Shown: positions 23,775 to 27,193 of the stretch, piece after piece
Layout: the number at the start of each line of letters is the position of its first letter
Position numbering within the stretch: the first letter of the stretch is position 1
Source: Pontivivens insulae
Lineage (GTDB): Bacteria > Pseudomonadota > Alphaproteobacteria > Rhodobacterales > Rhodobacteraceae
NCBI RefSeq assembly: GCF_900302495.1
Contig: NZ_OMKW01000002.1
Coordinates: forward strand, 186,001-250,000
Reading direction: 5' to 3'
DNA: 64,000 nt
Made by a program: the position numbers and the translations under genes
The notes under the pieces: model-generated
The model's input: the letters and a program-made list of their open reading frames with translations, nothing else
Databases searched by the model: none
Told to the model about the DNA's origin: nothing

Positions 23775-24782
23775 CTAGCCGAACAGTTCGGCGACGGCGC
23801 GTTCAACACGCAGGGCTGACCCCGCATCATCCAGCGGATCGCGGCGCAGGCGGTGGCTGAGTGCGGCTGGAGCAATCCGTGCGATATGGGTGCGGTTCAG
23901 CGCGGTATCACCCTGGAAAGCGGCCAGCGCACGCGCGGTGCGCAACAGGGTCAACTCTCCGCGCAGTCCATCAGAGCCAAGAGCCACGCAAAGGCGGGCA
24001 CAATCCTCAAGCACGTCATCTGGTGTCTTAATATCGGCAAGTGTGGCGCGCGCGGCCAGGATTGCCTTGCGCAGCTTGGTATCCTGAGCGCGCCACCGTT
24101 TCATAAAGGCAGCTTTGTCCGTCTCGTACGCATCACGGCGCTTGATGACTTCCACACGTTGTCCAATGTCACTCGGTGATCCGACATCGACGGAGAGGCC
24201 GAACCGGTCGAGAAGCTGTGGGCGCAGTTCACCCTCTTCCGGGTTGCCCGAGCCGACGAGCACGAACCGGGCGTCATGGCGGATAGATAGCCCCTCACGC
24301 TCCACAACATTTACGCCGGATTGCGCTACGTCCAGCAGCAAGTCGACAATGTGATCTTCCAGCAAGTTTGCTTCGTCGATGTAGAGATATCCGCGATTGG
24401 CACGGGCCAGCAGGCCCGGTTCAAATGCCTTCTCCCCCTGCGTCAGCGCACGTTCGATATCGAGCGCACCTGTCACCCGGTCCTCAGTCGCACCCAATGG
24501 CAGATCGATCACGGGCGCGGGGCGGGACTTCAGGGACTTTCCGGGATGTTGTGCGCAATGAGGGCAGGTGCCCGGCAGGGTCGCGCAGTTGTATGGACAG
24601 CCGTCAACAGCCTCTATGGAGGGCAGGAGCGCGGCCAATGCACGGACGGCTGTTGATTTCCCTGTTCCGCGATCACCAAAAATCAGCACACCGCCGATGC
24701 CGGGATCAATCGCCGTCAGGACCAAGGCCTGTTTCATCTCGTCCTGACCGACAATGGCGGTAAAGGGAAACGGTTGTGTCAT
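23775..24782 (-). CDS. bchI: Magnesium chelatase ATPase subunit I
   Basis: AAA+ ATPase of magnesium chelatase, 335 aa, the family's usual length. It has Walker A GDRGTGKS (residues 36-43), a Cys-containing insertion ([15 protein letters not shown]) typical of BchI, Walker B YIDEANLL, and the sensor region [13 protein letters not shown]. The ATG at 24782 overlaps the crtA stop (ATGA). The frame is open upstream through crtA, but those residues are out-of-frame translation of crtA. Cytoplasmic. Confidence 0.96.
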
Positions 24783-25507
24783 CGTGTCTGGTCTTTCGGC
24801 AGGTCGAGATGGGTCAGCGGCGTCGGTCCGGGCCAGGGGCCTGACCATTGGCCGATCTCCCCGCTGATGCGAAAGCGGGCGTAGAGCTCTTCGGCAAACC
24901 AATTGCCAGCGCGCACTGCGCGGATTGCTTCGGCATGGGGGCCATCGACGCGCGCAAATGCCGCCATGGATTGGGTGTCTGGCCAGATGGAGAAGGTGAT
25001 CTGGTGCAGCCATGGCACCTCTCCGATGCCGATTTTGAACAGGCGGTTCTGATCGGCGCCGATCACGGCACTGATCGCAGGCACTTTTTGCCAGAACTTG
25101 AGCAGGACAGACGGTTTTATCGTGGCACGGGTCAAGGCCACGACCGGTCCTGCCGGATTGGCTGCAACTCGAAAGGGCTGCTGCGCATCCCATTCCCCGC
25201 GCACCGACGTCGGGTCGAGGAATACTGTCCACTGCTCATTCGCGCGCGTGCGAAACCTGCGGAAAACTGGCGCCGTTTCGATGGCGCGCCGGGCGGTTTG
25301 CCGATCAGGCCAAACAGCCAAAATGCCGTACACCGCCGTATTTGGCACAGGTGTGAAGCCCTCACCGCTACCGGAGCCGAGCAATTTATGAAAACCGATC
25401 CCCTCGACGCGCCGTAACGCACGGCGTGCCAGCCCCATCTGCGCAAAGGCCCAGAGCCGCGCGCCGAGGCTATCAAAGCGGTGCAAGGTGAGGGTTACGG
25501 TGTCGAT
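24779..25507 (-). CDS. crtA: Spheroidene monooxygenase CrtA (apparent ATC start)
   Basis: Oxygen-dependent enzyme that converts spheroidene to spheroidenone. The 242-aa reading from 25507 matches the family length of about 240. It begins IDTVTLTLHRFDSLGARLW, which aligns with the known CrtA N-terminus (M-x-TVSL...RFE-LGARLW) so that the family's initiator Met falls on an ATC codon. A perfect GTAGGAG ribosome-binding site lies 7 nt before that ATC. The only canonical in-frame starts are TTG codons at 25549, 25561 and 25567, with no comparable site; those codons overlap or lie beyond the PpsR operator. First gene of the minus-strand crtA-bchI-bchD-bchO operon. Confidence 0.9.
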   Translation of the reverse strand: MDTVTLTLHRFDSLGARLWAFAQMGLARRALRRVEGIGFHKLLGSGSGEGFTPVPNTAVYGILAVWPDRQTARRAIETAPVFRRFRTRANEQWTVFLDPTSVRGEWDAQQPFRVAANPAGPVVALTRATIKPSVLLKFWQKVPAISAVIGADQNRLFKIGIGEVPWLHQITFSIWPDTQSMAAFARVDGPHAEAIRAVRAGNWFAEELYARFRISGEIGQWSGPWPGPTPLTHLDLPKDQTR

Positions 25508-25530
25508 GGAACGGCTCCTACGGCGCAGTC

Positions 25531-25548
25531 TGTCTTCATATCCTGACA
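25531..25548. promoter_or_regulatory. PpsR operator (crtA/crtI region, site 1)
   Basis: Exact TGT-N12-ACA (TGTCTTCATATCCTGACA), 24 bp upstream of the proposed crtA start. Confidence 0.85.
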
Positions 25549-25615
25549 ATATAGCCGCCAATGGCAATGTTTTTGAAGGCAGTGAAAGGTTTACCTGTCA
25601 ATTTTCTGCTTTAGG

Positions 25616-25633
25616 TGTAAATTTAGAGTGACA
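25616..25633. promoter_or_regulatory. PpsR operator (crtA/crtI region, site 2)
   Basis: Exact TGT-N12-ACA (TGTAAATTTAGAGTGACA) extended to GTGT...ACAC, ending 15 bp before the crtI ATG. It lies 85 bp from site 1, consistent with looped repression of both divergent promoters. Confidence 0.87.
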
Positions 25634-25648
25634 CCTAGGGGAGACCTC

Positions 25649-27193
25649 ATGCTAACGCGCGTTGATCCACATACTGATCTTGAGACCGGGTCTGACACCC
25701 GCCCTCCGGCGATCGTGATTGGCGCAGGGTTCGGTGGGCTCGCCGCCGCGATGCGGCTTGGTGCCAAAGGCTATCGCGTCACGGTCATTGATCGCCTCGA
25801 TATGGTTGGTGGTCGGGCAAGTTCGATTACCAAGGCGGGTCATCGGTTCGATCTGGGGCCAACCATTGTAACAGTCCCGCAGGTCTTTCGGGAACTTTGG
25901 CAGGCGACGGGCCGCCGCTTTGACGACTATGTCGATCTGACCGCACTCGACCCGTTCTATGAGATCCGCTGGCCTGATGGCTCCCATTTCACGGCGTCCG
26001 GTTCGACGGAGGCCATGCGTGCCGAGGTTGAACGGCTCTCCCCTGGTGATCTGAAGGGCTATGACAGGTTTCTCAAGGACAGTGAGCGGCGCTATGCGTT
26101 CGGGTTTGAGGATCTGGGCCGCCGGTCGATGCACAAGCTTTGGGATTTGATCAAAGTCTTGCCGACATTTGGAATGTTGCGCGCGGATCGCTCGGTTCTG
26201 AGCCATGCGAAACGCCGTGTTCGCGACAAACGATTGCAGATGGCGCTGAGCTTTCATCCACTCTTCATCGGTGGCGATCCGATGCATGTCACCTCAATGT
26301 ATATTCTGGTGAGTTATCTCGAGAAACAGTTCGGCGTTCATTATGCGCAAGGTGGGGCAGGGGCCATCGCCCTGGCCATGGCGCGCGTCATCCAAGAGCA
26401 GGGCGGACGGCTGATGCTGGACACTGAGGTGAGTGAAATCACCACCGACGGAGACCGTGTGAGCGGTGTGCGACTGGCCGATGGCGACACGTTGCGTGCC
26501 GGTTTGGTCGTCTCGAATGCGGATGCCGGTCACACCTATCTCAAAACACTGAAATGCAAGAAAAAACGCTGGACGGATCGACGGCTCAAATCGCGGACAC
26601 GCTGGTCCATGGGCCTTTTCGTATGGTATTTCGGCACGAAGGGTACATCCGATATGTGGCCGGGTGCGGGCCATCATACAATCCTGAACGGTCCGCGTTA
26701 CGAAGGGCTGCTCAATGACATTTTCATCAAGGGCAAGCTTGCTGATGATATGAGCCTCTATGTCCATCGGCCCTCGGTGACTGATCCGAGCGTTGCGCCT
26801 GATGGCGACGATACCTTCTACGCTTTGTCGCCTGTGCCGCATCTTGGTCATAAGGACCCGGTCAATTGGGCGCAGGAGGCGGAAAGCTACAGGCAGAAGG
26901 TGCAGGCCGTATTGGAAGAGCAGCTTTTGCCGGGTCTTGGCGATCATCTGACAGCGCAGCACATTCTGACCCCCGCGGATTTTGAGACGCGCTACCTGTC
27001 TCCATTTGGCAGCGCGTTCTCAATTGAGCCGCGCATTTTGCAGAGCGCCTGGTTCCGCCCGCACAATATCTCCGAAGAAATCGAAGGTCTCTATCTCGTG
27101 GGTGCCGGCACCCATCCCGGTGCGGGCCTGCCAGGCGTTATCGCTTCGGCCGAGGTGTTGGGCAGTTTGGTGCCGGAGGCCGTCGCACGATGA
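25649..27193 (+). CDS. crtI: Phytoene desaturase CrtI
   Basis: FAD-dependent desaturase that converts phytoene to neurosporene (three steps) in spheroidene producers; membrane-associated. The 514-aa product has the dinucleotide-binding motif IVIGAGFGGLAAA (residues 22-34), the family sequence GGRAS with FDLGPT downstream, and the C-terminal bacterial-desaturase signature YLVGAGTHPGAGLPGV. The ATG at 25649 has GGGGAG at good distance; a GTG at 25628 lies inside the PpsR operator and is rejected. It overlaps crtB by 4 nt (ATGA). Confidence 0.96.
   Translation: MLTRVDPHTDLETGSDTRPPAIVIGAGFGGLAAAMRLGAKGYRVTVIDRLDMVGGRASSITKAGHRFDLGPTIVTVPQVFRELWQATGRRFDDYVDLTALDPFYEIRWPDGSHFTASGSTEAMRAEVERLSPGDLKGYDRFLKDSERRYAFGFEDLGRRSMHKLWDLIKVLPTFGMLRADRSVLSHAKRRVRDKRLQMALSFHPLFIGGDPMHVTSMYILVSYLEKQFGVHYAQGGAGAIALAMARVIQEQGGRLMLDTEVSEITTDGDRVSGVRLADGDTLRAGLVVSNADAGHTYLKTLKCKKKRWTDRRLKSRTRWSMGLFVWYFGTKGTSDMWPGAGHHTILNGPRYEGLLNDIFIKGKLADDMSLYVHRPSVTDPSVAPDGDDTFYALSPVPHLGHKDPVNWAQEAESYRQKVQAVLEEQLLPGLGDHLTAQHILTPADFETRYLSPFGSAFSIEPRILQSAWFRPHNISEEIEGLYLVGAGTHPGAGLPGVIASAEVLGSLVPEAVAR

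Follow-up and report, generated by a model that had tools for sequence, protein, structure and literature searches.

Comparative Evidence for Recurrent AUU, AUC or AUA Start Codons in crtA, a Carotenoid Ketolase Gene

Organization of the crtA Locus

The window (the whole stretch of 64,000 nucleotides that was analysed) carries crtA between bchI and the divergent gene crtI, with the following features, all numbered along the window:

23775–24782, minus strand: bchI, a relative of the magnesium-chelatase subunit of PDB 1g8p
24779–25507, minus strand: crtA, spheroidene monooxygenase, read from ATC, 242 residues plus stop
25505–25507, minus strand: ATC, proposed start codon of crtA, column 1 of the family
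25515–25521, minus strand: GTAGGAG, Shine-Dalgarno (SD) sequence of crtA, 7 nt (CCGTTCC) 5′ of the ATC
25531–25548, minus strand: proximal TGT-N12-ACA operator of the PpsR/CrtJ type, by motif, 23 nt before the crtA ATC
25547–25567, minus strand: rival in-frame TTG codons (25567–25565, 25561–25559 and 25549–25547), judged unused
25548–25577, minus strand: promoter-like TTCAAA-18-TATATT, with 9 of 12 consensus matches (0.2 such sites expected by shuffling)
25616–25633, minus strand: distal TGT-N12-ACA operator, by motif, adjoining the divergent crtI start
25649–27193, plus strand: crtI, divergent, with ATG 25649 chosen by eye (TIGR02734, 624.6 bits on the longer open reading frame)

By its family profile, the crtA product is the spheroidene monooxygenase CrtA, for which ketolation of spheroidene is predicted. 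It scores 357 bits with the NCBIfam model NF045923, above the curated cut-off of 300, and matches profile positions 2–225 of 226. Positions 2–225 correspond to residues 22–243 of the open reading frame taken from TTG 25567, and profile position 1 corresponds to residue 21, which is the ATC at 25507. The alignment of relatives, whose CrtA proteins are 39–68% identical to that of the window, likewise puts the first residue of the family on this ATC, which is followed by GAC ACC GTA ACC CTC. A preliminary description of this DNA had aligned the family's initiator with an ATC lying 7 nt after a GTAGGAG, and the coordinates, the alignment of relatives and NF045923 all agree with that placement. A Pfam search gave no match at 0.001, and Rfam found two tRNAs and nothing else in the 64-kb window.

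The nearest in-frame stop 5′ of the ATC is TGA 25600–25598, and between the two, ATG, GTG and TTG codons are limited to the TTGs at 25567, 25561 and 25549. The preliminary description held that the only canonical in-frame starts are TTGs at or beyond the operator; this is correct upstream, where there are three such codons and TTG 25549 overlaps the proximal operator, but it overlooks a further in-frame TTG at 25486, seven codons 3′ of the ATC. The −10 box of the promoter-like site covers part of TTG 25549 and, if the site is real, the consensus match would place the start of the crtA transcript near 25541, and the three upstream TTGs would all lie outside it.

The TGT-N12-ACA element, which we take to be the PpsR/CrtJ motif, is found at most 140 nt from the start in 68 of 70 loci with an AUU, AUC or AUA codon (hereafter AUH) in the start column and in 50 of 53 ATG loci, and in 40 of these 68 and 29 of these 50 the nearest copy is 15–25 nt upstream of the start. 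A CTTTCC block is conserved about 16–21 nt upstream of the proximal operator when 49 AUH loci are aligned on the operator. On the other side of the intergenic region, the arrangement is mirrored: 15 nt separate the distal operator from the crtI ATG at 25649, and AGGGGAG at 25637–25643 precedes that ATG.

At its 3′ end, the crtA stop is overlapped by 4 nt (ATGA, 24779–24782) by the bchI ATG (24782–24780), and the same −4 spacing occurs in 124 of the 157 loci with bchI found downstream. Translation of bchI could possibly be coupled to a weakly started crtA through this overlap. As an explanation of the start type, the operon arrangement was considered and rejected: bchI was found downstream in 58 of 70 AUH and 99 of 109 other crtA loci, and the 4-nt overlap is present in 45/58 and 79/99 of them, respectively, so that the crtA start type is independent of the overlap.

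AUH Codons Recur in the Start Column of crtA Relatives

The crtA loci of relatives were compared; the family sample, with one genome per genus, covers 150 genomes out of 166 that have a crtA match, the rest being weaker matches or falling outside the matches listed. Identical crtA 5′ regions were collapsed to give 179 distinct rows, with near-identical rows retained, and a distant paralogue outside the E-value limit (L017) was left out. In the column aligned with the window ATC, these 179 loci have 53 ATG, 44 ATT, 21 ATC, 5 ATA, 9 GTG, 3 TTG and 44 other codons; AUH thus accounts for 70 of them. Where another codon occupies the column, a canonical start lies one codon upstream in 30 loci and further up in 14. 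Counted with one genome per genus (n = 150), the column holds 53 AUH, 47 ATG, 8 GTG, 3 TTG and 39 other codons. The preliminary description called AUC initiation very rare, which fits bacteria generally but not crtA, with AUH in 53 of the 150 genera examined.

In the genus of the window, crtA is present in two of four genomes, and the same-genus genome G001 (locus L003) has ATC in the column with no canonical alternative. Named isolates with ATC are Palleronia pelagia, P. salina and Jannaschia seohaensis; those with ATT are Tranquillimonas alkanivorans, Phycocomes zhengii and four Pseudotabrizicola species; and those with ATA are Tabrizicola rongguiensis and Litoreibacter roseus, in which an in-frame ATG lies 4 and 7 codons upstream. 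Among these isolates, only Jannaschia seohaensis (DSM 25227) is without any upstream canonical codon. A class-wide search of 386 genomes yielded five with a crtA match, three of them outside the family; L194 and L195 from this search have ATG in the column and L193 has TTG one codon upstream.

Canonical starts are found in some further settings. The genome G078, which we take to be R. sphaeroides (it shares an identical TspO with that species' PDB entry), has a crtA (L192) with ATG and AGGAGG, and annotated plasmid copies of crtA (six examined of eight records matched) start with ATG, GTG or TTG. The BchI of PDB 1g8p, presumably that of R. capsulatus, was sought among the loci and not found, the best identity being 84.6%. 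In a second genome, G118, whose TspO shares 87% identity with the G078 protein, crtI (L189) shows no ATG, GTG or TTG from its in-frame stop to the conserved block; the tblastn match there is in two pieces, and a further non-canonical start, a frameshift or a fault in the assembly could each account for this.

The start types were placed on a quick LG+G4 tree of 178 rows, from which, as from the energy tests below, L056 (Saprospiraceae) was left out. The crtA reading frame extends over at least 225 residues in all 178 rows. Furthermore, dN/dS is 0.19–0.22 in three pairs of AUH crtA genes, all within Pseudotabrizicola, and 0 in a near-identical Palleronia AUH pair. Parsimony requires 29 switches between AUH and non-AUH starts, where 200 shuffles gave 55 on average and never fewer than 45, and the AUH start is therefore inherited, yet often changed. 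There are 23 changes between AUH and ATG and 23 among ATT, ATC and ATA. Together, these observations make the AUH start of crtA look like a real, repeatedly evolved weak start and not a sequencing error.

Start Codon or Internal Isoleucine

An isoleucine codon in this column could in principle be internal to a longer protein, but five tests, counting the open frames and dN/dS values above as one, agree that it looks like a start codon. In 26 of the 179 crtA loci, there is no ATG, GTG or TTG between the in-frame stop and the conserved N terminus; all 26 are AUH loci, and 24 of them also lack CTG. Applied to the neighbouring genes of the same loci, the same rule picks out 1 of 171 crtI and 0 of 174 bchI genes (Fisher p = 2e-7 and 1e-8). 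The codons in the column are also unlike isoleucine codons elsewhere: the ratio ATT:ATC:ATA is 44:21:5 in the start column versus 169:531:62 for the other isoleucine codons in these genes (first 225; p = 5e-13), so that ATC makes up 531 of 762 isoleucine codons elsewhere and ATT 44 of 70 in the column. Four-base SD matches in the AUH loci are concentrated just before the column, with 109 at −13 to −10 versus 7 over −40 to −16.

An upstream in-frame ATG, GTG or TTG is retained in 44 of the 70 AUH loci, at most 15 codons away in 32. Since the window is one of these 44, its locus alone is not decisive. The density of ATG, GTG and TTG upstream of the AUH codon is 0.053, 0.051 and 0.057 in the three frames, and stops are met in 31, 27 and 27 of the 70 loci by frame, in frame as often as out; with both measures equal across frames, the upstream frame looks non-coding.

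These data bear on where else CrtA synthesis might begin. Initiation at an upstream TTG, most likely 25549, would give CrtA an N-terminal extension of 14–20 residues; the TTGs are canonical, in frame and uninterrupted, some upstream canonical codon is kept in the majority of AUH loci, and TTG 25549 has some computed pairing with the anti-SD (−4.8 kcal/mol, versus −0.3 for each of TTG 25567 and TTG 25561). We regard such a start as improbable, because all three TTGs pair more weakly with the anti-SD than does the SD before the ATC (−6.5 kcal/mol), upstream canonical codons occur in AUH loci at no more than chance density and are absent altogether from the 26 loci above, SD matches are scarce at the corresponding distances, the upstream sequences are not alike among crtA relatives, the promoter-like −10 box overlaps TTG 25549, and NF045923 begins at the ATC. 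A start within the conserved region, at TTG 25486, is highly improbable: this codon is canonical and in frame, and GTG is the fourth codon in 17 of 70 AUH loci, but initiation there would drop the conserved first residues and would take place 28 nt after the SD. Furthermore, 19 AUH loci have no canonical start either upstream or in the next 8 codons, and SD-supported downstream canonical codons occur in just 2 of 70 (L132 and L143). Counting both directions, an SD-supported canonical codon elsewhere within −60 to +25 codons is found in 14 of the 70 AUH loci, for example in L032, where GTG directly precedes ATT.

The window comes from a 10-contig assembly, and the preliminary description named a misread ATG as a refuting case. 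That ATC stands for ATG through a sequencing or assembly error is nevertheless extremely unlikely, given that AUH occupies the same column at 69 other distinct loci, among them the ATC of the same-genus L003, and that Palleronia pelagia, Jannaschia seohaensis (both ATC) and four Pseudotabrizicola species (ATT), among other isolates, show AUH independently. Initiation at the ATC itself, as the preliminary description proposed, is strongly supported by the comparison with relatives.

SD Pairing Strengthens as the Start Codon Weakens

An SD 4 nt or longer, with a spacing of 3–10, precedes 65 of 70 AUH starts, 6 of 7 TTG, 17 of 22 GTG and 34 of 79 ATG starts (AUH versus AUG, p = 3e-11); five of the 70 AUH codons have no SD of 4 nt before them. 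Mean SD pairing follows the same order, at −5.55 kcal/mol for AUG (79 loci), −7.19 for GUG (22), −7.72 for UUG (6) and −8.50 for AUH (70), the AUH group being stronger than AUG (p = 3e-10) and than GUG and UUG (p = 0.01). SD pairing therefore strengthens as the crtA start codon weakens. The window itself, at −6.5 kcal/mol for its SD duplex with the anti-SD, is weaker than the AUH mean of −8.5.

The relation also appears in comparisons on the tree. In 27 path-disjoint AUH/AUG pairs on the best tree, SD pairing is stronger on the AUH side in 21.6 and on the AUG side in 5.4 (means of 200 draws), with a median p of 6e-4 (range 1e-6 to 0.02), a test that leans on partly unsupported branches of the quick LG+G4 tree. 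Restricted to supported branches, which leave 6 pairs, 2.8 favour a stronger AUH SD, 0.2 go against it and 3 are equal (means), and the difference is not significant. Among the neighbouring genes, an SD of 4 nt is less frequent before AUG-type crtA (34 of 79) than before bchI (112 of 174; p = 0.002), and still less frequent before crtI (31 of 170 at the nearest start). The scarcity relative to bchI would suit a low set point of CrtA synthesis, but the even lower figure for crtI tempers this.

A Model for Initiation at the crtA AUC

Comparison supports the position of the start, its recurrence across genera, the trade-off between SD and start codon and the existence of 26 loci without a canonical alternative. 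On these grounds, we consider it highly likely that CrtA synthesis begins at AUC 25507 with initiator tRNA, helped by a compensating SD. In this model, the GUAGGAG sequence would hold the 30S subunit on the crtA mRNA, and initiator tRNA-fMet would pair with the first two positions of AUC, so that CrtA would begin with Met and not Ile; infC and pcnB are the precedents for Met at AUH starts. IF3 would act against the third-position mismatch and so make AUH codons poor starts, and the well-spaced SD would partly offset this weakness, so that the ketolase encoded by the first gene of the crtA-bchI operon would presumably be made at a low but real level. The enzyme whose synthesis would be limited in this way is described as an oxygen-dependent carotenoid ketolase (PMC10604819). 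It is plausible that the weak AUC start keeps CrtA synthesis low, as the preliminary description suggested and in agreement with the outputs of AUU and AUA sites in S. aureus given below, and the model further predicts that CrtA expression falls as IF3 rises, as for infC. The ATG with AGGAGG of G078 and the canonical starts of the plasmid copies speak against a simple account. The Met first residue, the low output, the dependence on IF3 and any benefit to the cell are what we infer from this mechanism.

Whether such a start is useful is a separate question. It is quite possible, though short of an even chance, that the AUH start is real but non-adaptive, little CrtA being needed and start mutations being nearly neutral. 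This would be compatible with AUC initiation and a rival only to its usefulness, and it fits both the 29 AUH/other changes on the tree and the fact that AUH interchanges with ATG as frequently as ATT, ATC and ATA do with one another. Pure neutrality, however, predicts neither the ordering of SD strength by start weakness nor the paired contrasts. Rather more tentatively, the crtA start may be an evolvable dial at a low CrtA set point, reached either with AUG and a weak SD or with AUH and a strong SD, with lineages moving back and forth between them. In AUH lineages, CrtA synthesis would then depend on IF3 activity and on the supply of ribosomes as well. If the dial reading were true, a translational layer would be added to carotenoid control.

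For initiation at AUH in crtA more generally, there is a practical consequence: a gene finder that accepts ATG, GTG and TTG only would misplace the crtA start in 26 loci, and possibly in all 70. As the gene of a metabolic enzyme that seems to be AUH-started in about one third of the genera examined, with numerous switches and an SD trade-off that can be measured, crtA also offers a natural experiment on the co-evolution of start codon and SD.

Comparison with Known Systems

Among the matches listed in the open-licence literature, there is no report of a non-canonical crtA start. To our knowledge, conserved AUU, AUC or AUA starts are known for just a handful of bacterial genes in the literature covered. 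Among the closest known cases is infC, which has an AUH start like crtA but encodes IF3 itself and is autoregulated. Of 30 infC loci from the same bacterial family, 28 could be anchored (L197–L225 except L203; L196 and L203 were mis-anchored and left out), and every one of these has ATA as its start; in 16 of the 28, no canonical codon precedes it over 40 codons or as far as the stop. The window's own genome (L249, G000:C5) has an infC with ATA and no canonical codon back to the stop. With infC as a positive control, starting with ATA both in the family and in this genome, these bacteria very probably do initiate at AUH codons. Furthermore, the infC codon is ATA in every anchored locus, whereas the crtA column varies among ATT, ATC, ATA, ATG, GTG and TTG. 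Elsewhere, the infC start is given as AUU in E. coli (PMC1780047) and AUA in S. aureus (PMC13009471).

Other known cases differ from crtA in different ways. In E. coli, the AUU start of pcnB is described as limiting synthesis of the enzyme (cited in PMC1780047 and PMC13009471); it is described for that species, and no recurrent switching is reported for it in the literature covered. In S. aureus, the non-canonical starts of ccpN (AUA) and cvfC1 (AUU) are described as conserved and as preceded by a strong, extended SD, and the reporter output of AUU and AUA sites is put at about 10% of that of AUG in poor medium, rising for ccpN to as much as 30% in rich medium (PMC13009471). Those starts were shown experimentally, whereas the crtA start is supported by comparison, but across many genera and with a varying codon. 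A weaker start codon accompanied by a stronger SD, as in crtA, is likewise described for GUG and UUG starts by Belinky et al., 2017 (PMC5622118). In the same survey, 36 groups of close genomes gave one AUG-to-AUU switch among 61,358 ancestral AUG starts (PMC5622118), against 23 AUH/ATG changes in the crtA family, counted on a much deeper tree and not the same kind of rate. The mechanism of AUH initiation is a known one, of which crtA appears to be a new, widespread and evolutionarily labile example, and what stands out in crtA is scale and lability.
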